64,000 bases of DNA from Terfezia claveryi (Eukaryota; Ascomycota; Pezizomycetes; Pezizales; Pezizaceae): assembly GCA_015179025.1 (NCBI GenBank), contig WHUX01000183.1:42287-106286 (forward strand). Direction: 5' to 3'. The position numbers were made by a program, and so were the translations under genes. The notes beneath the pieces are model-generated. The model had not been told where the DNA came from. It saw nothing but the letters and a program-made list of their open reading frames with translations, and did no database searches. Positions 20,173 through 55,370 of this stretch are shown in pieces; position 1 is the first letter of the stretch; every line of letters begins with the position of its first letter.

Positions 20173-20380
20173 AGACTTGTTGTGAAAATGTTTATTTTGC
20201 ATAATAATTGTAGTTGGGATTGAATATAAATGAAATCCGGAATGCGCACGTGAGCACGTGGTTGAATGAAATTCAATGTTTTTCTAACAAAGCTAATCCG
20301 ATACTAATCAACCCCCGAATAGGAGGAATGAAACTAGATATACCAATTCAGACCTTCTCTCTGCTGATGTACTCAGATTT

Positions 20381-20674
20381 TTATACTACAACTAATGCCA
20401 AACAAAGCGTCACCTTGTGCGAAACCATAGCCACAATTTCATCCAAAGTCATGCCCCCCAGAGTTTGAAAATCAGTAATCCGGATGATTCCATTCAGCAT
20501 CCAATCCGCAACAATAAGCATGATCAAGGTGTCCAACATTTCCTCCGTAATCCTGTAGCCCAGCAATATCCACATATCAGTCGTTGAATCAAAGCTGAGA
20601 AAATCGTGAACATCAAGGAAATCCAAGAGATCAGTCTTCAAATCATCCGACCATGAGTAGCAGTTTTTAGTCAT
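20381..20674 (-). CDS. array small protein, copy 1 (97 aa)
   Basis: First copy from the left. The N-terminus is the most divergent of the set (MTKNCYSWSDD). The central blocks read FLSFDSTTDMWILL and ADWMLNGIIRITDF, so the Trp-x-x-Leu and Trp-Met-x-x-Gly-Ile positions are kept. It ends hydrophobically (LALVVV). Start taken at the Met in the ACAATG context shared by all copies. A single exon is sufficient. Confidence 0.7.
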   Translation of the reverse strand: MTKNCYSWSDDLKTDLLDFLDVHDFLSFDSTTDMWILLGYRITEEMLDTLIMLIVADWMLNGIIRITDFQTLGGMTLDEIVAMVSHKVTLCLALVVV

Positions 20675-21433
20675 TGTTATTGCAGTCTATGTTTTTCTCT
20701 CTGGCGTTTCCTTTGTATTAGTAGGGTATGCAAGTATTGTAGAAACTGGAACTATGGCAATAGACATGGCTCTAGAGTCCCTAATGTACCTCCCTTGAGC
20801 CGTGGACATGGCACCATTCACTTTGCCGCTAATTCCCTATGGCCCCGGCCCTGGAGCCATGCCCAGACCCAGTTCTCACTATTACTGGGTTATTTGCAAT
20901 CCCATAAGGGATATGGCCTATAGTTTATAGTTCCTTTGTACTTGTGTTATTTTGCTATACGTGATCCTATTGAACCCCCAAGCTTCTGTAGGATCTAAAG
21001 GTCTCCCCGGCCAAGTTAATTTAATCCAATACAAAAAAGCTTCCGAATGAAAATATGAAATGAAACAAGCAATAGCCCTCGCCCCTGGCCCCCGTCTCCC
21101 GGGATCTCTAGGAACATTCCGAGGCCGAGAAGATCATAGGTACTTAATTGTCTGATATGATTCATCTTCACTATGCAGCTAGGCCTGGGCACGTGACGAG
21201 ACTTCTTGTGAAAATGTTTTTTTTGCACAACAATTGTGCAAGCTGAGATTGAATAAAATGAAATCCGGAATGCGCACGTGGGCATGTGGTTAAATAAATC
21301 AAATAAATGCTATCCTTCTGTGAAATTCAAAGTCCCCTCCAACAAAGCTAATCCGACACTATTCAATCAAGAAATAGGAGGAATGAAACCAGATATACCA
21401 ATTCAGACCTTCTCCCTGATCTACTCAGAGCAT

Positions 21434-21748
21434 TTATAGCCCCTCCGCTATCTCCACGATGGCTACCAAACCTTTCTCAATATCCTCCTTAACCATAAAC
21501 ACAACCTCCCACATTTTCATGCGCTTCAGAGTTGCCCACTGAGTAATCTTGGTGATTCCGTTCTCCATCCACTCCTGAACCATAAGGATGACCAAGAACC
21601 TAAACGTGTCCTCCTTAAGCCTGGTGCTCATCAACATACACCAGCGTTCCCCTGGGAAACCTTCATCGTAGGTGATAAAACCGAAAAGTTCTAGGAATTT
21701 CGTGAGCTCAGCCTTCAAAGTAACCTCAATTTGCGAGTTGGTAGGCAT
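21434..21748 (-). CDS. array small protein, copy 2 (104 aa)
   Basis: Intermediate between the two subfamilies. The central block is FITYDEGFPGERW, two residues longer than in copies 3 and 11-13, and the tail is extended (VEIAEGL). Keeps QEWMENGITKITQW. The upstream leader has a tandem duplication of about 50 bp around 21770-21840 (the CTCGTGCGTTTAGTATGGTA block twice). Confidence 0.7.
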   Translation of the reverse strand: MPTNSQIEVTLKAELTKFLELFGFITYDEGFPGERWCMLMSTRLKEDTFRFLVILMVQEWMENGITKITQWATLKRMKMWEVVFMVKEDIEKGLVAIVEIAEGL

Positions 21749-22549
21749 TGTTATTAGGGTTATTGTTGTTCTTGTCTCGGGCGTTTAGTATGGTATGCAG
21801 TTGTTCTTCTCTCGTGCGTTTAGTATGGTATGTAAGTGTAGTAGAAGAAGAAACTATGGCAATGGACATGGCTCTGGAGTCCCTAATATACTTCTCAGAG
21901 TGGCAATGGGACCATTCACTTTGCAATTATTTCCCTATGGCTGCATCCCTGGTGGCCACCTCCAAACCCAGTTCTCGCTATTACTGTGTTAATTTGAAAT
22001 TCCATGAGGTATATGGCTTATAGTTTATATTTCCTTTGTACTTGTGTTATTTTGCTATACGTGATCCTGTTTAACCCCCAAGCTTCTGTAGAATTCAATG
22101 GTCTGCCCCGGCCAGGTTAAGTTAAGTTAATCCAATACAAAAAAACTCTAGAATGAAAATAGGAAATGAAACAAGTAATAGCCCTCGCCCCTGACCCCGT
22201 CCCCTAGAATGTAGGAACACTGTGAGGCTGAGAGGATCATAGGAATGTATGATATGATTCATCTACATTATGCAGGTAGGCCTGGACACGCAACAAGCCG
22301 TCCGGAGACTAAGTCTCGAGACTTCTTGTGTAAATGTTTATTTTGAACAATAATTTGCAAGTTGGGATTGAATATAAATGAAATGCGCACGCAGGCATGT
22401 GGTTAAGTAAAATTAGGTAAATACTATCCTTCTGTGAAATTCAAAGGTCTTCAAACAAAGCTAATCCGATACTAATCAATCCCGGAATAGGAGGATTGAA
22501 ATTAGATATTTCAATTCAGACCTTTTCCCTGCTGATGTACTCAGCATTT

Positions 22550-22849
22550 TCATACCCCCAATGCTGCCAAATAACCCATCACCCGCTTCGCAACCATAGC
22601 AACAACCATATCCGAATTCATGCCCTTCAGAGTTTTAAACTCACTCATGGTGGTGATTCCATTGTCGATCCACTCCTCAACCATAACCTCAATCAAGGGG
22701 TCAAACATTTCCTCCGTAAGGCTGGAGCCCATCAGTATCCATAGTTTAGTCCCTGCATCCCAGGTGAGAAAACCGTTAAGACTTAGGAAATCGAAGAGAT
22801 CAGACCCCAAAACATCCTCAACTGGGTACCGGTAGTCGTCTGTAGGCAT
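22550..22849 (-). CDS. array small protein, copy 3 (99 aa)
   Basis: Subfamily A. It carries FLTWDAGTKLWILM, LTEEMFDPLIEVMVEEWI and DNGITTMSEFKTLKGM. It ends GYLAALGV with the stop inside the downstream conserved block. The last complete copy before the array is broken near 23320. Confidence 0.72.
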   Translation of the reverse strand: MPTDDYRYPVEDVLGSDLFDFLSLNGFLTWDAGTKLWILMGSSLTEEMFDPLIEVMVEEWIDNGITTMSEFKTLKGMNSDMVVAMVAKRVMGYLAALGV

Positions 22850-24720: not shown

Positions 24721-24740
24721 CCAACATAGTAAGGAAGTTA

Positions 24741-26505: not shown

Positions 26506-26805
26506 TTATACCCCCAATTCTGCCAAATAATCCGTCACCTGCTCCTCAACCATAGAAATAACCTCATCCAAATTCATTACCTGTGTAGATTCAAACTCAC
26601 TCATCTGGGTGATTCCCATCTCCATCCACTCCTCAACAATAAGCATGATCACGGTGTGAAACATTTCTTCCGTTAGCCTGGAGTTCATCAGTATCCACCA
26701 TCGAGTCCCTGGGGTGCCATCGTCATAGGTGAGAAAACCGTAAAGTTTTAGGAAATCCGTGAGCTTAGTCTTCAAAAGTTCCTTAACTGGGCAGTTTGAA
26801 GTCAT
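26506..26805 (-). CDS. array small protein, copy 4 (99 aa)
   Basis: Combines features of both subfamilies: the longer FLTYDDGTPGTRWWILM block with the subfamily A tail (SMVEEQVTDYLAELGV). It keeps VEEWMEMGITQMSEF. Foreign DNA ends about 45 bp beyond its stop codon, so its 3' flank is truncated. Confidence 0.72.
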   Translation of the reverse strand: MTSNCPVKELLKTKLTDFLKLYGFLTYDDGTPGTRWWILMNSRLTEEMFHTVIMLIVEEWMEMGITQMSEFESTQVMNLDEVISMVEEQVTDYLAELGV

Positions 26806-27549: not shown

Positions 27550-27849
27550 TCAGCGTTTTCGTACCAATAATGTCAACCAAATCGTCACCCTCTCCCTAAC
27601 CATAGCCACAACCTCGTCCAAAGTCATGCCCTTCAGAGTTTCAAACTCACTCATGTTGTTGATTCCATTCTGCCTCCAATCCCCAACAATAAACCTGATC
27701 ATGGTATGCAACCTTTCCTCCGCAATAATGGTGCTAATCAGTATCCACAGTGGAATCCTTGGATAATAGGTGAGCAAACGGTGAGCAAGTAGGAATCTCA
27801 AGAGCTCAGTCGCAAAAACATCCTCAACTGGGTGGCCGTTTGTAGTCAT
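27550..27849 (-). CDS. array small protein, copy 5 (99 aa)
   Basis: The most altered centre of the set: LLTYYPRIPLWILI replaces the usual FLTWDxGT block and GDWRQNGINNMSEF replaces the Trp-Met-Glu-Asn-Gly block. The tail ends in Arg-Lys-Arg. The frame is nevertheless open throughout. The spaced hydrophobic positions suggest the helices are kept. Confidence 0.65.
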   Translation of the reverse strand: MTTNGHPVEDVFATELLRFLLAHRLLTYYPRIPLWILISTIIAEERLHTMIRFIVGDWRQNGINNMSEFETLKGMTLDEVVAMVRERVTIWLTLLVRKR

Positions 27850-28815: not shown

Positions 28816-28954
28816 TTATACCCCCATTTCTGCCAAATAAGCTGTCACCAGCTCCTTAACCATAGCCACAACCTCATCCAAATTCATGCCCTTCAGAGTT
28901 ACAAACTCACTCATGGTGGTGATTCCGTTCTCCATCCACTCCTCAACAATAGCC
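28816..28954 (-). pseudogene. array small protein, truncated copy
   Basis: Only the C-terminal 46 codons remain (from a GAIVEEWMENGI-type start to VTAYL and the usual stop). The break falls at AACAATAGCC / CCGCCCAGTT, where the sequence jumps to the upstream leader of a unit. That deletion removed the N-terminus, the start codon and the proximal promoter. Confidence 0.75.
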
Positions 28955-29512
28955 CCGCCCAGTTCTCGCTATAACCGGGTTAATTTGCAATCCCATAAGG
29001 GATATGGCCTATAGTTTATAGTTCCGTACCTATGCTATTTTGCTATACATGATTCTGTTAAACCTTCAAGCTTCTGTAGGATCCAAAGGTCTGCCCGGCC
29101 AAGTTAATCCAATATAAAACAGTTCCGAATGAGGGTAAGAAATGAGGCAAGAAATACCGCTCGCCCCTGGCCCCGTCCGCCAGGATCTTTAGGAACATTC
29201 CGAGGCCGAGGAGATCATAGGTACTTAATTCTGTCATATGATTCATCTTCACTATGCAGCTAGGCTTGGGCACGCGACGAGAAGTCTCGAAACTTGTGAA
29301 AATGTTTATTTTGCACCATAATTTTGCAAGTTGGGATTGAATATAAATGAAATCCGGAATGCAATGCGCACGTGGGCATATGGTTAAATAAAATCGGGTA
29401 AATACTATTCTTCTGTGAATTTCAAAGTCCCTCCAACAAAGCTAATCCTATACTATTCAATCCCCAAATAGGAGGAATGAAACTAGATCATACATTTTCC
29501 CTGCTGGAGCTT

Positions 29513-29833
29513 CTAGGAGCCCCACACTATCCCCTCCGAGGCTATCAAACTTTTCTCCGCATGCTCCTTAACCATAATCAGAATCTCCCACGTTTTCTTG
29601 CCCTCCTTAGTTTTAAAGTCATTCATCGTGTTGATCCCTTTCTCCATCCAAAGCTCAACCATAAGCTTGACCAAGGTTGGATACCTTTCCATCATAATTT
29701 TGGTGCCCATCAGGTTACACCAGCGTATCCCTGAGGTATCATCTTCAAAGCTGACAAAACCATAAACCTTTAGGTATTTCATGAGCTGAGCTGTCAAAAG
29801 CTTCTCAATCTCATCTTTGCGGTTTGTAGACAT
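29513..29833 (-). CDS. array small protein, copy 6, subfamily B (106 aa)
   Basis: Subfamily B: MSTNRKDEIEKLLTAQLMKY, then VSFEDDTSGIRWCNLMGTK, VELWMEKGINTMNDF and an EGIVWGS tail longer than in subfamily A. An in-frame Met at 29959 would add 42 residues, but the corresponding region is out of frame in subfamily A, so the shorter start is preferred. Confidence 0.7.
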   Translation of the reverse strand: MSTNRKDEIEKLLTAQLMKYLKVYGFVSFEDDTSGIRWCNLMGTKIMMERYPTLVKLMVELWMEKGINTMNDFKTKEGKKTWEILIMVKEHAEKSLIASEGIVWGS

Positions 29834-29933
29834 TGTTATGAGAGTTATTGTTGTTTTCTTTCTGGCATTAGTATGGTATGCAAGTGTAGTAGAAAGAGGA
29901 ACTATGGCAATGGGCATGGCTCTGGAGTCCCTA

Positions 29934-29950
29934 ATATACCTCTCTTGAGC
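29934..29950 (-). promoter_or_regulatory. TATA-like box conserved in array units
   Basis: Minus-strand GGTATATTAGGG lies about 105-120 bp before the ATG. The same box, with up to two changes, precedes nearly every copy (plus-strand positions near 20786, 21886, 22966, 26917, 27961, 31857, 35128, 51893, 53398, 55010). Copy 9 near 50798 lacks it. Position and conservation suggest a core promoter; no transcription start is known. Confidence 0.45.
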
Positions 29951-30020
29951 CGTGGTCATGGCACCATTCTCTCCGCCGCTACTTCCCTATGGCCCCGGCC
30001 TTGGTAGCCACCTTCAGACC

Positions 30021-31437: not shown

Positions 31438-31758
31438 TTAGGAGCCCCACACTATCCCCTCCGAGGCTATCAAACTTTTCTTCACATGCTCCTTAACCAT
31501 ATCCAGAACCTCCCACATTTTCATGCCCTCCTTAGTTAAAAAGTCATTCATTGTGGTGATCCCTTTCTCCATCCAAAGCTCAACCATAAGTTTGACCAAG
31601 GTTGGATACCTTTCCACCATAATTCTGGTGCCTACCAGATTAAACCAGCGTACCCCTGAGGTGCTATCTTCAGAGGTGACAAAACCATATTCCTTTAGGT
31701 ATTGCATGAGCTCAGCTGTCAAAAGATTCTCAATGTCAACTTCGCAGTTTGTAGACAT
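31438..31758 (-). CDS. array small protein, copy 7, subfamily B (106 aa)
   Basis: Very close to copy 6: MSTNCEVDIENLLTAELMQY, SEDSTSGVRWFNLVGTRIM, VELWMEKGITTMNDF, EGIVWGS. The difference from copy 6 is mainly substitutions with no frame change. Its leader carries the conserved box at 31857-31865 and is interrupted 200 bp further upstream by the Harbinger element. Confidence 0.72.
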   Translation of the reverse strand: MSTNCEVDIENLLTAELMQYLKEYGFVTSEDSTSGVRWFNLVGTRIMVERYPTLVKLMVELWMEKGITTMNDFLTKEGMKMWEVLDMVKEHVKKSLIASEGIVWGS

Positions 31759-32182
31759 TGTTATGAGGGTTATTGTTGTTTTCTCTCTGGCATTAGTATG
31801 GTATGCAAGTGTAGTAGAAAGAGGAACTATGGCAATGGGCATGGCTCTGGAGTCCCTAATATACCTCTCTTGAGCCGTGGTCATGGCACCATTCTCTTCA
31901 CCGCTACTTCCCTATGGCCCCGGCCTTGGTAGCTACCTTCAGACCCGGTTCTCGCTATTAGAGACCTTCCGAAATCCATCCAGAGGGCGTGGCGCTGACT
32001 AGGATCAGTGTTCCGCTCTAGAGGAGTAAGAAGACCTTCCGAAATATTCCAAAGCTGTAGAATTAGTCAGCACGTGTAGAAAACAACACGCAACAACATC
32101 AACCTGTACCAGTAACATGTTTTGCAGTCACCATGTCAGTATCATTACGATTACTGCATGCCCAATCTCAACGTGAAAAAGA

Positions 32183-34745: not shown

Positions 34746-35066
34746 TTAGAAGCCCCCCACTATCCCCCCTGAGGCTATCAAACCTTTCTCCACATGCTCC
34801 TGAACCATAATCACAACCTCCCACAATTTCATGCCCTGCTTACTTTTAAAGTCATTCATTGTGGTGATTCCTTTCTCCATCCACTGCACAACCATAAGCT
34901 TGACCAAGATTTGATACATTTGCACCATAATTCTGGAGCTCATCAGTTTACACCAGTGCGTCCCTGAGGTACCATCTTCGAAGGTGACAAAACCGTAAAC
35001 CTTTAGGTAATGCATGAGCTCAGCTGTCAAAAGATTCTCAATCTCAACTTCGCAGTTTGTAGACAT
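34746..35066 (-). CDS. array small protein, copy 8, subfamily B (106 aa)
   Basis: MSTNCEVEIENLLTAELMHY, TFEDGTSGTHWCKLMSSR, VVQWMEKGITTMNDFKSKQG and a GGIVGGF tail. The upstream unit is cut about 140 bp before the ATG by a LINE poly-T, leaving the TATA-like box near 35128 but removing the distal leader. Confidence 0.7.
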   Translation of the reverse strand: MSTNCEVEIENLLTAELMHYLKVYGFVTFEDGTSGTHWCKLMSSRIMVQMYQILVKLMVVQWMEKGITTMNDFKSKQGMKLWEVVIMVQEHVEKGLIASGGIVGGF

Positions 35067-38890: not shown

Positions 38891-38899
38891 ATCACACAC

Positions 38900-40609: not shown

Positions 40610-40735
40610 TACCCCACAACCAACAACACCGCCAAAGACAACGCTACCAAATACAACGCCGCCAAACACAATACCGCGACACACGATACCGCGACACACA
40701 ATACCGCGACACACAATATTGCTACACCTACAATA
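40610..40735 (+). repeat. 15-bp minisatellite, ACAATACCGCGACAC type
   Basis: About eight units of ACAATACCGCGACAC / ACAACGCCGCCAAAC variants. In phase with a 72-codon Asn/Thr/Ala-rich frame, but I see no other sign of coding. Confidence 0.65.
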
Positions 40736-41018
40736 CCACCTCCGAACCCCCGAACTAATTCGATATGCCTGCTAGTGGTGCATTGAAAAGTAAAGGTTGG
40801 ACGGAAATGAATTCTCTCTCTCCAAGTCTGAAGGTCTTTAAGTACAAGCTCCGGGGCGTCCAGGCCCCATTTCCCAAAGAGGGAGCGCCGTTCTTTCGCC
40901 TCACGTGATATCTCCTCTCACGGGGAGTCTCACCTGACTTCCACCTTACACGAGGCTAGAAGCGAAGCTTGCTCGCGTCTCCATTGGTCCTCCTTGTCTT
41001 CTGCAGCATGCTGTCGGT

Positions 41019-41391
41019 CTATCTACTTCTCACTCCGTTCCTCCAGAATATCATTAATGCCTTTGGACAAGTCATCCCTACCCTTGAACTCCTCCGAGCC
41101 ATCTTCTCCCAGAATTGCTGAGACCATATCGAGGTCAGTAGCTTCGGGTGCTCCCTCTCCCCCGATGATCCTGACAAAGTGTTCTCGCAAGAACACCCCA
41201 CTGTTTTCCATTCTCGCAAGTCCATTGGAACCTTTCTGTCCTCTGCTCTCTTCCCCATTTGTCAATCAACTCCTTATTCTCTGTGTCCAGAAACCCAACC
41301 GGATTTCCTTTCCCCACCCATGGTCCAATTCCTACAAGTACCACCACCGGGATGTGGCTCAGCCCCCACGCGCTAGTGACAGAGGTAGCGA
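41019..41391 (-). pseudogene. unassigned protein fragment
   Basis: Minus-strand reading PVVVLVGIGPWVGKGNPVGF and then, after one frame change near 41265, NSGVFLREHFVRIIGGEGAP, EATDLDMVSAILGEDGSEE and LSKGINDILEERSEK with a stop. It looks like the C-terminal end of a real protein, but I do not recognise it. It is cut at 41392 by a Ginger-type end. Confidence 0.35.
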
Positions 41392-41920
41392 TGTTCTGGT
41401 CTGCCTGGGAATCGGCTGATTCGCGATTATGCCAGCCCATTCGCGAATGGGCTGTTTCCTGGGGAGGCCAGCCTGCCCAGGAATGGGTATTCCTGCGTGG
41501 GCTGGCCTCTCCGGGAATAGCTATTTCTGCGTGGGCTTGCCTCCTGCGTGGGCTCCTCTCATCATGTATTGACTAAATTCAAGTGTGGAGGTTAGTTAAG
41601 GTAGGCTCACCGGTGGATATGGTCACGCATACGAGTAATCAGGCCAGGAAAAAAAAAAAAAAAATCACTCCGGAGATGCGTATGCAGGCCAGCTAAGGTA
41701 GGGTTACGAACTCTGGCCAGCTAAGGTAGGCTTGCCACATGAAGATGGTGAAGTAATACCTTTACCACGCATGGCTACTATGGAACATGAACGGCTAGGT
41801 AGTTTATATTCATGAAAATTTTCTTTCTCCTCAATCATCTTCAGATTCTGAGCCTCAAACTCACTATTCAATTCACCAAGTTCGAATAGCAGGTCCCGCT
41901 CAAGTTTCTAAGTCTACTCC
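41392..41920 (+). repeat. Ginger-like element end, copy 1 of a 0.53-kb duplication
   Basis: Starts TGTTCTGGTCTGCCTGGGAA. Contains several inverted GATTCGCG / TTCGCGAATGGG and TTCCTGGGGAGG / CCCAGGAATGGG pairs, a TAGTTAAGGTAGGCTC unit and a poly-A run. Matches 44265-44805 almost base for base to AAGTCTACTCC, where mitochondrial-like sequence begins. Confidence 0.85.
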
Positions 41921-42660
41921 GGGGGGTGGAGTGGGGGACCCTCCCACACGCAGTGTGGGGAGCAAAGCAGCGGACTTTTCAACTAACTAGTTCGGTGGAA
42001 AGCTGAAAAATGACATAAGTCATTCTTCCCAGCCCCCTAATTAACTGTGGGCAGGTAAAAAAAAAAAAAAAAAAAGAACTACAACTCGCTACAGGAAGAT
42101 CTCGCAATTACACGGGATTAAATATGATCCATACAAGGATTCAGGAGGTGGGGCTTTGCCCATCCTTTGAAGAGAATACAAATCACTTAATCTAGTGGTC
42201 ATATGTTAGAAATGAATTCCACCCATGAACCCCACATTGAGTGGATAGTGGGAGCAGTATCTTAACCAATCCTAATAGAAGTCAGGGGGAGAGCAGTATG
42301 GGCTGAAAGCTGCACGTACGGTTCGGTGGGGAGTTCACTGACCTCTGGCGATTATGAACGCGTTCTAGTCGTCGTCTAGAGTCCTGGCGTAAAGCCATAT
42401 CTTAGGAGGGTTCTTACCCAACTACCAGGTGCGATGAAAGAAAAGGCGGCAGCTAGGGAGCAGAGGAGTCTGCTTTTTTTCTCTAGCTTTAGCTGAGCTT
42501 ACCCTCCGGCTCAGCAATAGCAATTAGCTATAGGTATAGGAATTAGCAATAGCAATAGCAATTAGCAAGCTTACCCTCCGGCTCAGCAATGGTAGGGAGG
42601 GTACGGGGGGCTTTCGGTTCGGTTTAGCTTCGCTCTCCCCCAGCGAACCAGGGGGGGAGT
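41921..42660 (+). other. probable nuclear copy of mitochondrial DNA (NUMT) with group II intron sequence
   Basis: The stretch differs from its surroundings: it has the 3' part of a group II intron around 42230-42340, AATAGCAATTAGC short repeats, and GC-rich clusters (CTTACCCTCCGGCTCAGCAA twice; CCCCCAGCGAACCAGGGGGG) of the kind common in fungal mitochondrial genomes. Group II introns are normally organellar in fungi. A GTGCGATGAAAG sequence at 42429-42440 resembles a group II 5' end. No intron-encoded protein remains. The exact edges are uncertain. Confidence 0.6.
42291..42324 (+). ncRNA. group II intron domain V (degenerate)
   Basis: 34 nt, the canonical length. GAGC at the start pairs with GTTC at the end, a GAAA tetraloop sits at positions 15-18, and the 3' strand GCACGTACGGTTC is canonical. 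It is followed by GGTGGGGAGTTCACTGACC, as in many mitochondrial group II introns. Two positions break normal pairing (A at position 5; the distal stem GGGCT/GCTGC), consistent with decay after transfer to the nucleus. Confidence 0.7.
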
Positions 42661-43004
42661 CTCTCATTTGACCCACGTTTTAATATTGGGTGGGTCAAAT
42701 GTTGTTTTCAAAGCCAGGTCCTTAGTGGTGGGTTTCGCCGATCCATTTTCCCCGGGTTGTCCTTTCTCTTTCCCTTGCCTGGCGTCTCGTAGATTGGCAC
42801 GGAGGTCGTTGCTTTGCGGCTCCCGCAGTGTTGGCCAGGTGTGGGAGTTACCGGTATCTGCTGGGAATTGGGCGGGGGTGGCGTAGCAGCGAAGGTGTGG
42901 GGAGCTAAGTCGGGAGTGTCTGTCTCCAGGGTTACAGTGTGGGACAGGTACAGGAATGGATTTCTGGTCTTGTACAGTTGTATCAGGAATTTTGTAGACG
43001 TATA

Positions 43005-43060
43005 TTTTTTTTTTTTAAATACTCAGTACTCCTATGCAGCCCGTAGGGGGCTATGAGGAG
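43005..43060 (-). mobile_element. 56-bp LINE insertion, 13-bp target duplication
   Basis: A poly-T start, AAATACTCAGTACTCCTATG and CCCGTAGGGGGCTATGAGGA form the extreme 3' end of LINE family A, flanked by TTGTAGACGTATA at 42992-43004 and 43061-43073. It is an extremely 5'-truncated copy. Confidence 0.85.
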
Positions 43061-43309
43061 TTGTAGACGTATAGGTATCCTTTAACAAATAAAAAAAATA
43101 AAAATATGATTGAAACTATGTCTACAGGAGGAGACAGCTACGAAAACACAATAATCAAGGGGGAAACCCGTGAATGAGCACCCCATACAAATCTCGACTT
43201 GCAAGTGCTAACGCAATGTAGAACCAAGTAATCTAATTCTGAAACAGGGAAGACGGACTTGAGGCACGGTGGTAAGGGTACGGTCAAGGTGAGCGCTACC
43301 AAAACCATA

Positions 43310-44059
43310 CTAATCCATTAGATACAATGGCACCAAAGTTGCGGGATAGAACCCTCTCTGTTGGTATGTGAACGCCGCAAATTCACTCTGGATGGGCAGA
43401 CTTTCAACTCTCACAAGATGCGGCGAAGCCTCACACACTGTGTCAAACATGGCACATGTACAAGGGTTATCTGCATTCGGTACACGGCCCACCCACATGG
43501 TTTGAACAAAAAATTGCCGCCTTAGATGATGGGATGAACCCGGAAGAAGGATCCAGCCATGTTGGACCGGTTTACCCATGGGTGTGTAGGGTTTATGGAA
43601 ACATTCTTCACAAAACCAGAAACATTTGATCTCTTGATTGATTAGCCCTCGAACGTCTCCGAGTAGAATAGCCCCCACTCCATCTGTATATCGCTCTTGA
43701 TGTGGTGCGCGTCTCGCAAGGAGTGCATATTGGTAGCCCAGGCGAAACATAGTTTCACCGGGTTTCTCTTGCTCTCTTCTCTCCAGTCCGCAGTCCTTGC
43801 ACACGGGTTTGCTGCACAGAAAACACCGCTTCAAACGGCTGGTACAAAGGGGGAATGCATTGAGTAGCCTTCCAACAGTGGCGGTGAACGTCCAGTGAAG
43901 GGTGCGGCAAGTTCGGGCCAGATTGATGATATCGGGCCGATGACTGTAGGAGAGGATAGATTTCAGGATTGGGTAGGCGTTGAAGATACGCAGTAGCAAT
44001 TCTGGGCTCTGAGCGGTGTACTTTGGGGATTCATGTTGGTCCATTGTAGTAAGGGACAT
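43310..44059 (-). CDS. F-box-like protein with a cysteine-rich region
   Basis: Single exon, 249 aa. Residues about 17-60 read SPELLLRIFNAYPILKSILS followed by PDIINLARTCRTLHWTF, an F-box-like helix set (LxxIL...LxxLARTCRxLH). F-box proteins recruit substrates to SCF ubiquitin ligases through Skp1. Next comes a Cys-rich part, RCFLCSKPVCKDCGL (three Cys pairs) and IKCFWFCEECF, a possible zinc-binding module. The C-terminal third is hydrophobic and ends PATLVPLYLMD. The start at 44059 gives a full F-box; a second Met five codons later is also possible. It lies between the two copies of a Ginger end. No lesion is visible. Substrate unknown. Confidence 0.7.
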   Translation of the reverse strand: MSLTTMDQHESPKYTAQSPELLLRIFNAYPILKSILSYSHRPDIINLARTCRTLHWTFTATVGRLLNAFPLCTSRLKRCFLCSKPVCKDCGLERREQEKPGETMFRLGYQYALLARRAPHQERYTDGVGAILLGDVRGLINQEIKCFWFCEECFHKPYTPMGKPVQHGWILLPGSSHHLRRQFFVQTMWVGRVPNADNPCTCAMFDTVCEASPHLVRVESLPIQSEFAAFTYQQRGFYPATLVPLYLMD

Positions 44060-44178
44060 GGCGTGAAGTTGTAGTTTTGATGAGATAAATTGATATTCAG
44101 TTGAGTTTTGTTTTGTGATTGATGTTCAGTGACATTGAGGATCTTTTATGCGCAGTCACAGGGTCAAGTGCTTGTACC

Positions 44179-44264
44179 TGTTCTGGCCTGCCCGGGAATC
44201 GGCTGATTCGTTCATAGGCCATCCCATTCGCGAATGGGACAATTCCTAGAGAGGCCATGAATTG
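44179..44264 (+). repeat. Ginger-like element end fragment
   Basis: Starts TGTTCTGGCCTGCCCGGGAA and matches the first about 60 bp of the next copy at 44265, then stops (GAGGCCATGAATTG). It is a partial end next to a longer one. Confidence 0.65.
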
Positions 44265-45260
44265 TGTTCTGGTCTGCCCGGGAATCGGCTGATTCGCGAT
44301 TATGCCAGCCCATTCGCGAATGGGCTGTTTCCTGGGGAGGCAAGCCTGCCCAGGAATGGGTATTCCTGCCGCCTGCGTGGGCTGGCCTCTCCGGGAATAG
44401 CTATTTCTGCGTGGGCTTGCCTCCTGCGTGGGCTCCTCTCATCATGTATTGACTAAATTCAAGTGTGGAGGTTAGTTAAGGTAGGCTCACCGGTGGATAT
44501 GGTCACGCATACGAGTAATCAGGCCAGGAAAAAAAAAAAAAAAAAAACCTCCAGAGATGCGTATGCAGGCCAGCTAAGGTAGGGTTGCGAACTCTGGCCA
44601 GCTAAGGTAGGCTTGCCACATGAAGATGGTGAAGTAATACCTTTACCATGCATGGCTAGGTACTATGGAACATGAACTGCTAGGTAGTTTATATTCATGA
44701 AAATTTTCTTTCACCTCAATCATCTTCAGATTCTGAGCCTCAAACTCACTATTCAATTCACCAAGTTCGAATAGCAGGTCCCGCTCAAGCTTCTAAGTCT
44801 ACTCCCATACAACCTTGACTAGACTGTGAAGATTCAAAATCTGATACTGAAGCTATACAACCTCAACTGAACTCTGAAAATGTAGAGTCTGATAAAGAAG
44901 CTCCTCAACTACTTCTGGCCTGCGAAAAGCTACTCTAATGTGTTCAACAAAATACCACTAAAGCTCGGCAAAGTATTGTGAAGTGGTATGAACAACAACA
45001 TAATATTGAGGTTTTTGCTATTGGGGATATTGTTAGTGTACATATACCTCGACAAGATAGACATGGTACAGATGACCGACGACTCTATTGTCTTGTTGTA
45101 CGAAAACCTCATCCTAACCGCCATGCTTTATTAACCATATATTGCTTATTGGATCGGCACTATCCAACTCGAGAGCTACTGTACTAACCATTCCAGACTC
45201 ATTACCTAGATGCACCCAAGATTCGAGTATTAAGGGGATTTTTGTAGGAATGGCATAGTA
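44265..45260 (+). mobile_element. Ginger-like element remnant with SH3-like coding segment
   Basis: Bases 44265-44805 are the second copy of the 0.53-kb end. Beyond it the plus strand has CTAAAGCTCGGCAAAGTATT leading into coding sequence (44963-45187): SIVKWYEQQHNIEVFAIGD, IVSVHIPRQDRHGTDDRRLY, PHPNRHALLTIYCLLDRHYP, then TRELLY and a stop. The same SH3-like segment occurs in the intact integrase at 59.4-59.6 kb. No integrase core and no CXC motif are found here. Confidence 0.7.
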
Positions 45261-45299
45261 TTACCCCCTTTAGTTCTTTATAAGGGAACGAAGCAATAC

Positions 45300-45701
45300 A
45301 TGGGTTGGTTTCAGCATTTGGATGAAGATTTAGAACTCAAAAAAACTCTAGCCGCCATACTGGAAAGGCTAAGCTTACAATTGAAAGGAGATGTTCCTGT
45401 TAATACTGAAGAGCTTTTGGATATAATAGAACGTTTGGAGCACTTTGGAATTGCAGCACATAAGCATCGAGACCTAAATTGAGTTACATCTAGCCAATCG
45501 CAGGAGACAGTACAGTTGGCAGCTTCTAACGAGAAGAGGCATATTGGAAAGGGTTATGGTGAGGTAATTGATGGCAAAATACTTACCAATAATATAAAAA
45601 GCGAGATGCAGAGACAGGTCGCTCTACCAAAGCCCAGTAGTTATGAGGTTTCTGATAGTGAATTGGATGGGTGGAATGATGATTCAAGTCGATCTTGTTG
45701 A
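45300..45701 (+). pseudogene. small Leu/Glu-rich protein, interrupted by one stop
   Basis: One frame is open from ATG 45300 to TGA 45699-45701 apart from a single TGA at 45480-45482 (133 residues plus the internal stop). The first half is helical (LDEDLELKKTLAAILERLSL, VNTEELLDIIERLEHFGIA); the second ends SYEVSDSELDGWNDDSSRSC. It may belong to the adjacent Ginger element or be host sequence. Not recognised. Confidence 0.35.
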
Positions 45702-45879
45702 AACCCACATCTAATACACCTGGAGATTGCAGTTGCACTAACTGGTGTTGCCGCTATCCTGGGTATCCATCGTTGAAGCCATAGATTATCCATTGGCAGA
45801 GCCATCATCGCTATCCGGTAATACCACTGTCTGGCGAAGCCGCTGTCCGACGAAGCCGTTGTCCGTCAAAGCTATTACC

Positions 45880-46150
45880 GCCACAATGACAATATTCAAC
45901 AGAACTCTCACACACGCAAGCACCTTACGTCCGCCCATATGCAATCGTCTTGCGTCCGCACGTACGCAAGTATCCTTCCGTAGGTTGGGTTGAGTTGCGT
46001 CACTGTGGTTGCCACCAACCGCTATCGGCAATCCTTGCATTTTCTCGCTTTTGATTGGTTGAATAACACATCGCTGCGCTTTGTCTTTGCCCTGAGATTC
46101 CATGTATATAGACAAAGCTCCGGACCTGTATTTTCCATGAAATCAAGCAA
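45880..46150 (+). repeat. unclassified interspersed repeat, copy 2 (direct part)
   Basis: Matches 15780-15925 in the same orientation (GCAATCCTTGCATTTTCTCG, GAATAACACATCGCTGCG, CCATGTATATAGACAAAG). Confidence 0.5.
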
Positions 46151-46799
46151 GTCTTCAATTCGCTTCGTTTTCTATTGCATGACTTCTGTTGCTTAATTAG
46201 ATATTCCAAAATATCTTTTGTTACACCTTCACTATCTAATTCTACCTTGTCTGTTATCATTGTTTCTACCCGATTACCCTTGTTACGACGGGGTACAATC
46301 CCTCGTCCCCCCCCCTCCTCCCCCGCCTACACCTCTTAAAATGCGTACTCGGTGTTCCTTCATTAATATTCCTTCAATCCCATCTACCCCACACTCTCGT
46401 GTAACTAGATCTAGCTCAAAGTGTATTTAGTATTACATTGATCCACATCCCGGTGATGGATGGTAATGCCCATATATTTTTAGCTTCTACTATGTCCACT
46501 CACAAGCAAACCTGTCCTGTAGAGGTAGCTCAGAAGGAAGGGGTATTCTTTCAGAAATAGGGGCATCATGCCAGTGCCTCTATATCAGACAGGATGGTTT
46601 CACTTTGTTGCCTATGTTACCATCGTTCCGCTTTCTGTGATCTTGCTTTATGGATCCACTTATGAGGGGTATTTCAAATATGAGGTGCATCATATATAGA
46701 CTTGTAGATCTAGGATTCTCTGAGGGATCGGTAGATTCGTGGTAACCTTTATACGGTAGAAAGGATATTCTGTAATGTATTGCCCTCAAAAACCTCTGT

Positions 46800-47010
46800 G
46801 TGGTACCAGAGCGGATCTGTAGCGATATATCTACTATAGCGGATGGTAATACGCGGAGTGGACACTAGGGCGCGGAGTGCACTTAGGTAGTAGTGAACGA
46901 TGCGGGTGAAGACTTGCTAAGTAATTCTTAACACAAATCAGTGTCCGGAACGTTGCCTAGTGGGAATTCAGGGTAAGTCAATGTACAGGGATATGATATT
47001 CCGCCAAGCA
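46800..47010 (-). repeat. unclassified interspersed repeat, copy 2 (inverted part)
   Basis: The reverse complement matches 15885-16050 (CTTCACCCGCATCGTTCACT, GCGTATTACCATCCGCTATA). With 45880-46150 it forms a foldback around about 650 bp of unrelated sequence. Confidence 0.5.
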
Positions 47011-47039
47011 GAAGGAAGAGAATACAAGTTTTGCGGATA

Positions 47040-47195
47040 ACTTTTTCTGCGCCTCTGCTGCCGCCGCCTCTGCCTCCTCTGCCATCCCGCCTCTGCCTCC
47101 GCCGCCGTCACTCCCTCCGCCTCTGCTGCCATCACCTCCGCCTCTGCTACTGTCAACCCCGCCTCTGCTGCCATCTGCTGCTATCACTCATGGTG
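47040..47195 (-). repeat. CCTCTGCTGCCGCC-type minisatellite
   Basis: About 150 bp of 6- to 9-bp units (GCCTCTGCCTCC, GCCGTCACTCCCTCC), the reverse-strand version of the array at 47.93-49.74 kb. Confidence 0.7.
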
Positions 47196-47925
47196 ATTGG
47201 CAGTTGGAACGCCATCCAATTCGACGCTGAATTATGATTACCGAATGAAGCTAGAGAATGAATCCGCAGAGTGAATTCAGAGGGCCAATCTACGGAGGGC
47301 GAATCTGCCTGCGAAAATCTACAGTGGCGAATCAAACCCCGGGGAGGGTGGGGGCGCACCCCTAACATTACTTCGCTCGCAAACAGGGACCCTCAATATT
47401 GCTCTATTACCTAGTTACATTCTGTCAGATAACCTATAATTACACAAATATGGGACTGTCTGGATTTTTTGCCAGAATTTTTGCCCAGTATGAGGTACAC
47501 GGGAAATAATTATTTTCCTCCTATTTGCTTTTCTGCTCATTCTAACCTAGATACTAACTATTGTGATCTCTGGATCTTTCTAATGGTTAGGTGTCGAGCG
47601 AACACTGTATACGAGCGTAAAAACCCCCAAGCGAGCTTAATGCTACACAGAGAGCTCGAAGACCAAGACTCCAAGCGAGGTCGAAGGCCACAAGAGTTCG
47701 TACTTCCCAAGAGAGCTTAAATCCCAGCGAACCGGTGACATCCAGGTTGCTATAACCTCAAACACTCAGTTCGAGTTCAAAGATCAAAGACCACAGGCTA
47801 CGCCTTTATTTGGAACCCAAACGAGTGCACGTGTACAAAAAGCTGCAAGTGGAAATGAGCAAGACCGCCCCCCTCACACTAGCTATTGTTGAAGCGCACA
47901 TCCACTACACGCGGGTTATCCGTAT
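47196..47925. other. spacer, no supported gene
   Basis: Contains several GCGAATC/GAATCCGC short motifs (47270-47330) and small frames without signature. Confidence 0.35.
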
Positions 47926-49745
47926 CGGAGGTGAAGGCAGCAGATGGGGGGGGGGAGCTGGCAGCCAAGGCAGAGGTGGGAGTGACGGCAGCAGAGGCAG
48001 AGGCGGCGGTAGCTGAGGCCGATGCGGCGGCGGAGGCAGAGGCGGATGTGACAGCAGAGGGCAGCAGAGGAATAAGTGGAGGTGACGGCAGCAGAGGCGG
48101 AGGAGGTGACGACAGCGGAGGAAGAGGCGGAGGTCACAGCAGCGGAGGCAGAGGGAGGTGATGGCAGTGGAGGCAGAGGCGGGGGTGACGGCAGCAGAGG
48201 CGGATGGAGGTGACGGTAACGGAGGCAGAGGAGACGGCAGCAGAGGCGGATGTGACGGCGCAGAGGCGGAAGCAGTGACGGTAGCGGAGGTACAGGCCGA
48301 GGTGACGGCAGCGGAGGTATAGGTGACGGCGACAGAAGCGGAGGGAGTGACGGCGTCGTAGGTAGAGACGGAGGTGACAGGCGCAGAGGCAGAGGCGGCG
48401 TCAGTAGCGGCGGATCAATTATCTGAAGGCTTAAGCTTGCGCCATGAGCTTGCGCCCTGCCAAAGTGACGGCGACGGAGTCATAGGCGGAGATGACGGTA
48501 GAAGAGGAGGCGGTACCGGAGGCGCAGGGAGGTGACGGCAGCGGAGGTAGAGGGAACGGCGGCAGGAGCGGAGGGAGTGACGGCCGGCGGAGGTAGAGGC
48601 GGAGGTGAGCGGCGGTGACAGGCGCAGAGGCAGAGGCGGCGGCAGTAGCTGCGGATCAATTATGTGAACGCTTAAGCTTGCGCCATGAGCTTGCGCCCTG
48701 CCGAAGTGACGGAGGCGGAGCCAGAGGCGTAGTTGACGGTAGAAGAGGCGGCGGTACCGGAGGCAGAGGCAGCAGCGGAGGCGCAGGGAGGTGACGGCAG
48801 CGGAGGTGATGGCAACGGAGGCAGAGGCGGCGGTAGCAGCGGCGCAGGAAGGGTGACGGCAGCGGAGGCAGAGGCGGTGGCAGCAGCGGCGCAGGGAGGT
48901 GATGGCGGCAGAGGTGCTGTTGGGGAGGCGGCGGTGATGGTAGCAGAGGCGGAAGTGACGGCGGCAGAGGCGGAGAGAGTAACGGCAGTGGAGGTAGAGG
49001 GGAAGGTGATATCGGCGGAGGCGGAGGTGACAGTATCGGAGGCAGCGCAGCGGAGGAAGAGGTGGAGGTCACAGCAGCGGAGCCGGAGGCGGCGGTGACG
49101 GCGGCAGAGGTGGAGGGAGTGGCGGCTGCTGACCCAGAGGTGGAGATGACGGTAGCGGAGGCGGCGGTGACGGCTGCAGAGGCGGAGGGAGTGACTGCGG
49201 CGGAGGTAGAGGCGGAGGTGACAGGCGCAGAGGCAGAGGCGGCGGCAGTAGCGGCGGATCAATTATCAGAACGCTTAAGCTTGCGCCATGAGCTTGCGCC
49301 CTGCCAAAGTGACGGCGACGGAGTCATAGGCGGAGATGATGGTAGAAGAGGAGGCGGTACCGGAGGCGCAGGGAGGTGACGGCAGCGGAGGTAGACATGA
49401 CGGCTGCAGAGGCGGAGGGAGTGACGGCGGCGGAGGTAGAGGCGGAGGTGACAGGCGCAGAGGCAGAGGCGGCGGCAGTAGCGGCGGAACAATTATGTGA
49501 ACGCTTAAGCTTGCGCCATAAGCTTGCGCCATGCCAGATTGACGGCGGCAGAGGCGGAGGGAGGTGGCGGCAGCGGAGGTAGAGGTGACGGCAGCAGATG
49601 CAGAGGCAGCGGTATCAGAGGCGGAGGAAGGTGACGGCAGCAGAGGCGGGTGTGACTGTAGCGGGGGCCGCGGTGATGGCAGCATGACGGCAGCGGACAG
49701 AGCGGGGTAACGGCAGCAGAGCCAGAGCTGATAAGCATCGGAGGG
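47926..49745 (+). repeat. 1.8-kb GGAGGCAGAGGCGG minisatellite with higher-order units
   Basis: Short purine-rich units (GCAGAGGCGG, AGGTGACGGCAGCGGAGG) make up the array. A unique-looking insert (ATCAATTATxTGAAxGCTTAAG then CTTGCGCCATGAGCTTGCGC) recurs at about 48416, 48656, 49258 and 49490, which defines higher-order units of about 230-600 bp. Both strands are open over long stretches (Ala/Glu/Val-rich on plus, Pro/Ser/Leu-rich on minus) because of unit composition, so I do not call genes. Confidence 0.85.
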
Positions 49746-50189
49746 ACAGTAGAGGCGCGGGGCATATCTTTCCGAACGAATCTTACGACAGAAAATCCTT
49801 CCATAAACATCCACCGCAGAACAAAACCGGCGCCTATCCAAGTCGCTCAAACGCTCACCAAGACTACCAAGACCCGCTCCTATGTGGAGAAAGGCGATTT
49901 ATCTTTCCGGACCCTCTTACCCTCAACCGCGACTTTAATCATTCACCCACAAGGTCACATACCTTATTCCCCGGCCATTCAGATTTCCTTGGAATGCAGA
50001 CTTTAACTCAACAGCCTGCGGTTAGCTAGCTGGTCATGACTCCCCATGGGAGTAATGTTAGGTGAATATTGAGGAGGACAAGAGTACAAATTAAGATATT
50101 GTCATTGGCTCTGTTACATAACCTAGTGTAGGCCAGCAATCCCAAGAATCGGGTGGCTTCCCGGGTTTGGCATTGCCACTTGCACTTGC
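49746..50189. other. spacer, no supported gene
   Basis: No repeat or protein signature. AGTAATGTTAGGTG near 50050 is complementary to CACCCCTAACATTACT near 47360, a possible element boundary pair around the minisatellite. Confidence 0.35.
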
Positions 50190-50305
50190 AGGAAAGTTTC
50201 ATTCGTAAATGTAAATCCAGGTGATAAATTAAATAGAGAATGCGGAAGACATACTTCAGTATATAAACTCACAGCTGTACGGCGAGCAGCTTAACGAAGA
50301 AACCG
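50190..50305 (-). pseudogene. Ginger-like remnant joined to the array
   Basis: The sequence AAATAGAGAATGCGGAAGAC and GGCGAGCAGCTTAACGAAG corresponds to the reverse complement of about 24140-24270 (upstream of the CXC motif). Array sequence starts immediately to the right. Confidence 0.5.
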
Positions 50306-50368: not shown

Positions 50369-50686
50369 CTAAAGTAGACAGCGTTTGTAAAACCCCGAGA
50401 CTATCAAATTTTCCCTCACGTGCTCCTGAATCGTAGTCACAACCTGCGGCAAATCCATGCCCTGCTTAGATTCAAGGTCACTCATTTTGGTGATTCCAGA
50501 CTTCATCCACTCCTCAATAATAGGTTGGATCAAGGCATGAACCTTTTTCTCCGCAAATCGAAATGCCAGGAGTACATACCAGCCCCTCTCTGGGGTGCCA
50601 TTATCATAGGAGAGAAAACTGGCAGGTTTTAGGAATTCCATGAGCTCAGCCTTCAAAGAATCCTCAACTGGGAAGTTTGTAGTCAT
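50369..50686 (-). CDS. array small protein, copy 9 (105 aa)
   Basis: Divergent member: MTTNFPVEDSLKAELMEFLK, then FLSYDNGTPERGWYVLL, IEEWMKSGITKMSDLESKQG, and an unusual tail VSGFYKRCLL with a Cys. The upstream leader lacks the GGTATATTA box and has a shortened spacer. The frame is open. Confidence 0.65.
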   Translation of the reverse strand: MTTNFPVEDSLKAELMEFLKPASFLSYDNGTPERGWYVLLAFRFAEKKVHALIQPIIEEWMKSGITKMSDLESKQGMDLPQVVTTIQEHVRENLIVSGFYKRCLL

Positions 50687-51490: not shown

Positions 51491-51781
51491 TTATACCCCC
51501 ATTCCTTCCAAATAATCCGTCACCTGCTCCTCAACCATAGCCACAACCTCATCCAAATTCATGCCCTTCAGAGTTTCAAACTCACTCATGGTGGTGATTC
51601 CATCCTCCATCCAGTCCTCAACAATAGCCGAGATCAAGATCTCTAACATTTCCTCCATAAGCCTGGCGTCCATCAGTATCCACAGTCCAGTCCCTTCATC
51701 CCAGGTGAGAAAATCGTAAATATTTAGGAATCCCAAGAGCTCAGACCCCAAAACATCGATAACTGGGTCGCTGTTTGTCAT
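51491..51781 (-). CDS. array small protein, copy 10, subfamily A (96 aa)
   Basis: Close to the subfamily A consensus: PVIDVLGSELLGFLNIYDF, LTWDEGTGLWILM, IVEDWMEDGITTMSEFETL, KGMNLDEVVAMVEEQVTDYL. It is the shortest open copy. Its start Met is followed directly by TNSDP. Confidence 0.75.
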   Translation of the reverse strand: MTNSDPVIDVLGSELLGFLNIYDFLTWDEGTGLWILMDARLMEEMLEILISAIVEDWMEDGITTMSEFETLKGMNLDEVVAMVEEQVTDYLEGMGV

Positions 51782-52790: not shown

Positions 52791-52993
52791 TTGGCAAGTT
52801 GGAATTGAATATAAATGAAATTTGGAATGCGCACGCAGGCATGTGGTTAAGTAAAATTAGGTAAATCCTATCCTTCTCTGAAATTCAAAGTTTTTCCAAC
52901 AAAGCTAATCCGATACAAATCAATCCCCGAATAGGAGGAATGAAATTAGATATACCAATTCAGACCTTCTCCCTGCTGATGTATGCCGCGTTT

Positions 52994-53287
52994 TTATACC
53001 TCCATTTGTGCCAAATAAGCCGTCACCTGCTTCTTAACCATACCCACAACCTGATCCAAATTCATGCCCTTCAGAGTTTCAAACTCACTCATATTGGCGA
53101 TTCCATTCTCCATCCAGTCCTCAGCAATAGCCCAGATCAAGGTGTCTAACATTTCATCTGTAAGCCCGGAGTTCATCAGTGTCCACAGTTGAGTCCCTGC
53201 ATCCCAGGTGAGAAAATCCCGAAAACTTAGGAATCCCAAGAGCCCAGACGGCAAAACATCGATAACTGGGAAGCTGTTTGTAGTCAT
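52994..53287 (-). CDS. array small protein, copy 11, subfamily A (97 aa)
   Basis: PVIDVLPSGLLGFLSFRDF, LTWDAGTQLWTLM, LTDEMLDTLIWAIAEDWM, ENGIANMSEFETLKGMNL and a VTAYLAQMEV tail. A LINE sits about 200 bp beyond its stop and a solo LTR about 230 bp before its ATG, yet the frame is intact. Confidence 0.75.
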   Translation of the reverse strand: MTTNSFPVIDVLPSGLLGFLSFRDFLTWDAGTQLWTLMNSGLTDEMLDTLIWAIAEDWMENGIANMSEFETLKGMNLDQVVGMVKKQVTAYLAQMEV

Positions 53288-53520
53288 TGTTATTGCAGTT
53301 TATGTTGTTTTTCCCTCTGGCGTTTCGTTTGGATTAGAAGGGTATGCAAGTGTAGCAGAAAGAGGAACTATGGAAATGGACATGGCTCTGGAGTCCCTAA
53401 TATACCTAGAGCCGTGGACATGGCACCATCCCCTTCGCCGCTACTTCCCTATGGCCCCGGCCTTGGTAGCCACCTTCAGACCCAGTTCCGCTATTACTGG
53501 GTTAATTTGCTATCCCATAA

Positions 53521-53723
53521 TGTCACGGCTCACTGAATATAGACTGGAACTGCGAACTGGTTGGAAAGTATGGCGCTTAGATTGATTCCTATATTAGCAG
53601 CCCCAATTCTACTCACTTGTATTCTCTCTCCTCACGCAACATAGAATCTCTCTCTATATCGTAATCCATAGTTCAGAGCCCAAGCGCTCCCTAGAACGAG
53701 GTCATAGCTATTGCCCCGTTACA
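53521..53723 (+). mobile_element. solo LTR, 5-bp target duplication
   Basis: 203 bp starting TGTCACGGCTC and ending CCCCGTTACA, with CATAA on both sides (53516-53520, 53724-53728). Array sequence CCCATAAGGGATATG is cut at this point. TG...CA ends, a 5-bp duplication and the absence of internal sequence are the signature of LTR-LTR recombination. Family unassigned. Confidence 0.85.
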
Positions 53724-54052
53724 CATAAGGGATATGACCTATACTTTATAGTTCCTTTGTACTTGCGCTATTTTTGCTAGACATGATTCTGTTTAACCTT
53801 CAAGCTTCTGTATATCATGTAGGATCCAAAAGTCTGCCTCAGCAATACAAAACAATTCCAAATGAAAATAAGAAATGAAACGAGACATACGCCTCGCCCC
53901 CCCCAGAATTTACGAACATTCCGAGGCTGAGAGGATCATAGGTATGTGTGATATGATTCATCTTCACTATGCAGCTAGGCCTGGGCGCGTGATTAACCGT
54001 TTCGAGACTTCTTGTGAAATTGTTCACCTTGCACAATAATTTGGCAGGTTGG

Positions 54053-54401
54053 GACATCTATTTTGTTCCTTTGTTGGTATTTTCAGTCGGTTTCGGGTAT
54101 GGCCTCAGTCAGGCCCCTTGGGGTCATCCGCCTTTGGCGGTTAATTACCGCATGGAGGCCCTTTGCTGAGGTTTTCACAATTTCAGACATCTCGATGGCA
54201 CCTCTTCTGGGCCCGGGGAGTCTACGTTCCCTTCACACATGTATCTATCTTCATTGCTTTCTGCGCGCCGGACCTGGCAGGTTTACTTGCCTTGTTCTGA
54301 ATCCACCCGGGCTTCCGGGTGGCTCTTCGTTGTCCCCTTACTAGGACCGAATAAGAGTAACAACAAGTATTTAACTATTTTACGAAAAAAAAAAAACGAA
54401 A
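54053..54401 (+). mobile_element. LINE family A insertion, duplicated together with its array unit
   Basis: Same junction and 3' UTR as 52118-52790 but without the nested LINE and with its own small deletion near the 5' side. The right flank GTGTCAAGTTGG is a diverged copy of the target duplication. Confidence 0.8.
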
Positions 54402-54604
54402 GTGTCAAGTTGGGATTGAATATAAATGAAATCTGGAATGCGCATGCAGGCATATATTTAAGTAAAATTATGTAAATCCTATCCTTCTGTGAAATTCAAA
54501 GTTTTTCCAACAAAGCTAATCCAATACTAATCAATCCCCGAATAGGAGGAATGAAATTAGATATACCAATTCAGGCCTTATCCCTGCTGATGTACTCAGC
54601 GTTT

Positions 54605-54898
54605 TTATACTCCCATTAATGGCAAAACACCCGTCACCTGCTCCTCAACTATAGCAACAACCCTATCCGAATTCATGCGCTTCAGAGTTCCAAACTCACT
54701 CATCTTGGTGATTCCATTCTCTATCCACTCCTCAACAATAACCCAGATCAAATTGTCTAACATTTCCCCCGTAATTTTGGAGCTCATCAGTATCCACAGT
54801 TTAGTCCCTTCATCCCAGGTGAGCCAATTGTGAAGAGTTAGGAATTCCAAGAGCTCAGCCCCCAAAACATCCTGAACTGGGTAGCTGTTTGTAGACAT
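54605..54898 (-). CDS. array small protein, copy 12, subfamily A (97 aa)
   Basis: MSTNSYPVQDVLGAELLEFL, WLTWDEGTKLWILM, LDNLIWVIVEEWIENGITK, KRMNSDRVVAIVEEQVTGVL. Last copy on the right. Its leader is complete to about 55370 and includes the TATA-like box near 55010. Confidence 0.75.
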   Translation of the reverse strand: MSTNSYPVQDVLGAELLEFLTLHNWLTWDEGTKLWILMSSKITGEMLDNLIWVIVEEWIENGITKMSEFGTLKRMNSDRVVAIVEEQVTGVLPLMGV

Positions 54899-55370
54899 TG
54901 TTATTGCAGTTTATGTTGTTTTTCTCTCTGGCGTTTCGTTTGGACTAGAATGGTATGCAAGTGTAGTAGAAAGAGGAACTATGGCAATGGATATCACTCT
55001 AGAGTCCCTTATATACCTCTATTGAGCGGTGGACATCGCACCATTCTCTTCGCCGCTAATTCCCTATGGCCCCGGCCTTGGTAGCCACCTTCAGACCCAG
55101 TTCTCGCTATTACTGGGTTAATTTGCAATCCCATAAGGAATATGGCCTATAGTTTATACTTCCTTTGTACTTGTGTTATTTTGCTATACGTGATCCTATT
55201 GAACCCCCAAGCTTCTGTAGGAACCAGAGTTCTCCCCTGCCAAGTTAATTTAATCCAATACAAAAAAACTTCCGAATGAAAATATGAAATGAAACAAGCA
55301 ATAGCCCTCGCCCCTGGCCCCGTCTCCGAGAATCTAGGAACATTCCGAGGCTGAGGGGATCATAGGAATG

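Follow-up and report, generated by a model that had tools for sequence, protein, structure and literature searches.

Why should all twelve small genes of one array remain open in a stretch of DNA rich in transposons? The question is raised by the window analysed here, a stretch of 64,000 nucleotides from the desert truffle Terfezia claveryi, a member of the Pezizales (bases 42287-106286 of contig C94; genome of 72.6 Mb in 794 contigs). Alignment, together with a profile scan of all six frames of the window, bore out an array described in an earlier note, with twelve open copies and one truncated copy of a short gene, all on the minus strand, and the scan found no further family copies in the window. 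Undisturbed neighbours lie 1.04-1.12 kb apart from start to start, in agreement with the unit length of about 1.05-1.1 kb given in that note, and the remaining gaps are larger. The array looks like the product of head-to-tail duplication. The twelve copies, numbered along the window, give a good alignment in which 8 columns are invariant and column identity averages 46%. The ELLxFL helix and the FLTWDxGTxLW and ExWMENGIT motifs that had been claimed match the consensus, while individual copies vary. Sequence comparisons suggest an answer: the genes probably belong to a large family of small single-exon proteins, limited to Terfezia as far as found, that is under strong diversifying selection.

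The evidence comes from the codons of one genome. Between copies 10 and 11 there are 35 nonsynonymous and 2 synonymous changes; between copies 5 and 10 the counts are 66 and 5. In ordinary genes codon position 3 is more variable than positions 1 and 2. Here the order was reversed in 12 of the 20 pairs examined, positions 1 and 2 each exceeding position 3 in variability (e.g. 14, 18 and 5). An overlapping gene does not account for this pattern: summed over the 53 intact copies of the genome, the five other frames contain 144-457 stops, a single copy being stop-free in one antisense frame. The coding part was also compared with 150 bases of flank on each side in 25 main-class copies (300 pairs). 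Flank distance was below 0.25 in 228 pairs; in all 228 the nonsynonymous divergence (dN) exceeded flank distance, and in 99.1% it exceeded the synonymous divergence (dS), with medians of 0.477 for dN, 0.215 for dS and 0.155 for the flanks. Among the 40 closest pairs printed, 39 had a dN 1.3- to sixfold above dS.

Under model M0, fitted with a home-made codon likelihood program, omega (dN/dS) was 2.01 in a set of 14 copies (twice the log-likelihood difference, 2dlnL, to omega 1: 23.5), 1.95 in a set of 9 copies (14.8), 1.74 in 7 dispersed copies (4.6) and 2.46 in the 12 window copies alone (34.6). On a flank-derived tree, the 14-copy set gave an omega of 2.11. A mean omega near 2 across whole genes is rare, and simulation at omega 1 on three of the subclade trees returned values of 0.79-1.41 (12 runs). 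The first M8 fits placed 43-59% of the sites at omega 2.5-3.8. After refitting, the gain of M8 over M8a was 76.8 (14 copies), 35.2 (9 copies), 11.9 (7 dispersed copies) and 42.2 (C43 group, 9 copies), and it reached 93.3 for the 12 window copies. An omega above 1, over the whole gene or at sites, is thus combined with open frames, as in a diversifying tandem gene family, and the comparisons argue for diversifying selection on the protein sequence, rather than for neutrality or plain conservation. The idea that selection favours the product or its dosage therefore needs to be divided. Selection on the product stands, as diversifying selection (the array copies have an omega of about 2-2.5), whereas selection on dosage is rejected because it would favour identical products.

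Several observations weigh against diversifying selection. The joint excess of positions 1 and 2 over position 3 was missing in 8 of the 20 pairs. In the C43 group M0 omega was 1.23 (2dlnL 2.2), which is not significantly above 1, and the closest array pair, C70a/C70b, had a dN/dS of 0.83, the sole value below 1 among the 40 closest pairs. Recent dispersed copies are short of nonsynonymous changes: of six pairs, five have a pairwise omega of 0.17-0.45, and the remaining one shows 4 nonsynonymous and 0 synonymous changes. The closest pairs also diverge more at synonymous sites than in their flanks (0.088 and 0.010, respectively, for C70a/C70b), which may mean that the flanks are constrained or that the coding part mutates or is converted faster. 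Moreover, recombination between units can inflate site tests.

The array is one part of the family. Members of several subclasses were used as queries in protein searches, which converged with one DNA search on a single set. Its counts are lower bounds: at least 53 distinct intact open reading frames (ORFs) of 93-113 amino acids (aa), 12 in the window and 41 elsewhere; in addition, about 14 copies are broken or partial, a contig end cutting one of them. The family splits into several subclasses, and identity to copy 4 is as low as 22%. All 53 copies, chosen for an open sense frame, read from ATG to stop as a single open frame, and spliced exons may still lie upstream; in the 41 copies listed, the frame is open for 2-57 codons upstream of the family ATG. 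Left out of the 53 were a 184-aa open copy (L068, C68:306353-306904) with internal repeats, in which a GIMKLSDLQLGEDMR stretch is present as three in-frame near-copies, and one of two identical ORFs (C72:104730-105107 and C94:10823-11200, the latter omitted). The identical pair may stem from overlapping contigs in the assembly or from a segment duplicated recently; similarly, C334 and C403 are 99% identical over 653 bases. Two profile searches matched nine public proteins (eight from T. claveryi, among them P0001 and P0004, found with the window profile, and one from T. boudieri) compared with 53 intact ORFs, and relatives were found only in Terfezia in the protein database, where other truffles are represented by predicted proteins alone. 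The family is apparently undescribed, little annotated in public proteins and of no recognised kind; it shows how small single-exon genes escape annotation. Public protein P0001 fuses the truncated copy (28819-28968, minus strand, C-terminal half only) with copy 6 at 29513. In another public protein, P0011 (182 aa, region of C32:60484-60813), an unrelated-looking N-terminus is joined to a family member; the fusion could stem from faulty gene prediction or reflect a genuine two-domain gene.

The earlier note had recognised no known domain and no signal peptide in these proteins. Pfam, NCBIfam and PADLOC gave no family common to the members, every weak match being limited to one or two of them, no convincing sequence relative was found in the PDB, and Foldseek returned no significant match in the PDB for the predicted fold. 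The C-terminal region of the phage NrS-1 primase was considered as a candidate match in sequence or fold. For two distant subclasses AlphaFold2 predicted one common succession of a helix, three strands, a helix, a short helix and a long helix. For copy 4 (26506-26805, minus strand, intact, 99 aa), used for the first structure model with 13 sequences, the mean predicted local distance difference test score (pLDDT) was 84.5, and the four other models reached 53-62. For P0006 (18 sequences) the mean pLDDT was 91.2, with all five models at 90-91. The family is predicted to form one compact alpha-beta3-alpha3 fold. Along the predicted helices of copy 4, selected positions are scattered among unselected leucines and phenylalanines. 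Surface exposure of the selected residues is likely, but by hydropathy class they differ little from the rest (hydrophobic residues make up 12 of the 32 selected and 33 of the 66 others), a further point on the opposing side. The proteins are mostly acidic, with a median net charge of -5 (range -20 to +4, 53 copies). Judged by hydropathy only, 51 of the 53 have no secretion-signal-like start, a 10-residue window of at least 2.0 within the first 30 residues being present in two borderline cases. A membrane-like segment (19-residue window of at least 1.6) was found in five copies and in none of the other 48. We infer that the proteins are intracellular.

If diversifying selection is at work, each copy would express a stable scaffold whose variable, exposed residues would bind a partner that evolves along with it. 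Variants would be made by tandem duplication, exchange between units and positive selection, so that the array would act as a repertoire generator in an arms race with an opponent. The likeliest role, proposed tentatively, is in intracellular genetic conflict, as killer or antidote, suppressor or self-recognition factor. We prefer it because the proteins have no apparent secretion signal and the fungus outcrosses; PMC13152902 describes T. claveryi as a haploid, heterothallic species that must outcross to reproduce sexually. The family might also be a fungal intracellular recognition repertoire, in which tens of variants of a scaffold of about 100 residues serve in an immune- or self-recognition-like manner and are occasionally spread by transposable elements, but this is doubtful. 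Other roles are conceivable, again with low confidence. Restriction of viruses or transposons seems unlikely. It is likewise unlikely that the proteins are leaderless effectors, which would reach the host plant during ectendomycorrhiza and diversify against plant targets; here the missing secretion-signal-like N-terminus (51 of 53, by hydropathy only) speaks against the idea. Identification of the partner would reveal a new arena of conflict, in which the opposing side would be other nuclei, viruses or transposons, or the plant. The family is large and apparently intracellular, has a whole-gene omega near 2 and belongs to an outcrossing symbiotic fungus.

Known systems offer partial parallels. 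Like the wtf genes, killer meiotic drivers of Schizosaccharomyces pombe, the Terfezia genes form a multi-copy, fast-evolving fungal family with intact and broken members, inter-copy exchange and links to transposons; unlike them, they are single-exon genes of about 100 aa, most wtf genes having five or six exons according to PMC6526906. The wtf genes kill spores that lack them; no killing activity is known for the Terfezia family. The wtf proteins are membrane proteins with several transmembrane segments, whereas the Terfezia proteins are mostly not membrane-like (five of 53 by the window given above). Venom-toxin, reproductive-recognition and effector families under positive selection combine a conserved frame and conserved flanks with a nonsynonymous excess among paralogues, and the Terfezia copies do the same. 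Proteins of these families are secreted as a rule; in contrast, those of Terfezia have no signal peptide by hydropathy, and the N-terminal secretion signal of secreted effectors resembling mycorrhiza-induced small secreted proteins (MiSSP-like) has no counterpart beyond the two borderline cases. By analogy, the family appears to work like other arms-race families, in the absence of the wtf and classical secreted-effector features that were tested.

As judged by alignment, the promoter and untranslated regions of the units are conserved while the coding part changes. Stable regulatory DNA next to a changing protein is a hallmark of an arms race. Copy 11 (52994-53287, minus strand, intact, 97 aa) lies between a conserved 5' flank with promoter and leader (53288-53437, minus strand), in which a TATA-like GGTATATTA is found at about 53398-53406, and a conserved 3' flank (52844-52993, minus strand). 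Of 25 aligned flanks, 15 have the TATA-like GGTATATTA at 72-127 bases upstream of the ATG and 20 have a looser form, and several dispersed copies have GGTATATAA at a similar upstream place. Separate trees were built for the 5' flank, the coding part and the 3' flank. In the 14-copy set each of these trees is rejected by the data of the other two parts (approximately unbiased (AU) test, p < 0.04 in all six comparisons, lowest 6e-7). In the 9-copy set four of six comparisons gave rejection at 0.05. In these AU tests the replicates were too few for an exact value, and the 3' alignments contain some unrelated tail. No mosaic signal was detected within units by the pairwise homoplasy index (PHI) test (p 0.42-0.97). 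From the conflict between the trees, units seem to exchange whole parts, as in unequal crossing-over. The same conflict in the 14-copy set is compatible with a different mechanism, in which hypermutation targeted to the coding part, or donor-to-acceptor gene conversion, diversifies the copies in the manner of antigenic variation and selection merely keeps the frame open. The higher divergence of synonymous sites than of flanks in the closest pairs also agrees with it. Yet mutation alone is insufficient for the 1.3- to sixfold excess of dN over dS in 39 of the 40 closest pairs, and conversion finds no mosaic signal inside units, which leaves this mechanism improbable.

One subclass has an additional history. 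By DNA, a group of related copies is spread over C334, C223, C556, C782, C46, C403, C246, C446, C7, C9 and C90. A sequence of 108 bases that lies downstream of the gene is the terminal inverted repeat (TIR) of a widespread short element that is like a miniature inverted-repeat transposable element (MITE), with at least 40 copies of its ends (40 places scored of 68 candidates; C46, C446 and C90 lie outside the 40). Five gene-less elements (C556, C14, C201, C701, C130) have inverted repeats of 89-119 bases, span about 515-585 bases and start TA-C(A/G)GAGGC. The MITE-like family includes loci L094, L100, L104 and L107-L112, on C782, C7 and other contigs, and some of its copies are found beside or around a family gene. 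At the dispersed copies C782 and C7, both repeats and subterminal sequence flank the gene on both sides, as in a gene-carrying TIR element; C782 lacks the outermost bases of its left repeat and C7 those of its right one, and in C7 the gene is broken. The right repeat is retained by C334, C403, C556, C223, C9 and C246. Given these repeats, the dispersed subclass probably travelled as cargo of the MITE-like element, which shows how such an element can capture a small gene. As in the gene-carrying Pack-TYPE/MITE elements of PMC8903248, the gene lies in C782 and C7 between TIRs of a non-autonomous-looking element. A difference is that the link is seen in one dispersed subclass only and that the window is without such repeats: five TIR sequences had no match in the window at E 0.1, and none of the 20 pairs listed in an inverted-repeat scan of the window flanks a unit. 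The selfish gene-bearing repeat suggested earlier for the array fits the TIR-linked subclass, but the repeats of that element have no match in the window at this threshold. That the whole family is purely mobile-element cargo, selected for spread of the element, would account for this subclass with its TIRs of about 90-120 bases, but it is very improbable in view of the window without matching TIRs, the resemblance of the array to head-to-tail duplication and the majority of the 53 members outside the subclass. The dispersed copy at C246:189200-189900 (L096) has four stops and, by eye, many differences of G-to-A and C-to-T type, and looks like a case of repeat-induced point mutation or methylation decay.

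Open frames exceed the chance expectation. In a neutral simulation a stop was expected in 68-77% of copies, and 0 of 2000 runs were all-open for the 14-copy set, likewise 0 of 2000 for the 9-copy set. Since both sets had been selected as intact, the simulation is more fairly compared with the window, where 12 of 13 copies are open, and with the genome, where about 14 of 67 are broken. A neutral satellite-like tandem repeat with frames open by chance would suit the transposon-rich surroundings and the broken or partial copies, but it is contradicted, and hardly credible, as dN/dS is well above 1 with omega about 2 (a value near 1 with stops elsewhere had been named beforehand as its sign), 53 copies are intact beside about 14 broken ones, and members on many contigs keep the frame at only 22-33% identity to copy 4.

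The remaining copies of the array, all on the minus strand, are distributed on both sides of an interruption. Copies 1 (20381-20674, 97 aa), 2 (21434-21748, 104 aa), 3 (22550-22849, 99 aa) and 5 (27550-27849, 99 aa) are intact. In the next three copies the frame is open upstream of the core ORF that starts at the family ATG: copy 6 (29513-29959) has its core at 29513-29833 and an ATG at 29959, copy 7 (31438-31884) its core at 31438-31758 and an ATG at 31884, and copy 8 (34746-35165) its core at 34746-35066 and a GTG at 35165. Then follow about 15 kb without a family ORF (35200-50200), in which a 64-base unit remnant is present at 38088-38151. Copies 9 (50369-50686, 105 aa), 10 (51491-51781, 96 aa) and 12 (54605-54898, 97 aa) are again intact. 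The interruption also contains a degenerate minisatellite of about 2 kb with long ORFs in several frames (47900-49900), and G+C is 64% over 48-50 kb of the window. A match to an Rfam group II intron at 42289-42422 on the plus strand (42.7 bits, gathering threshold 40) is perhaps a fragment of mitochondrial DNA inside a nuclear contig. Outside the array, an ORF for a DnaJ-type chaperone (1100-2542, minus strand) looks intact, with DnaJ, central and C-terminal domains.

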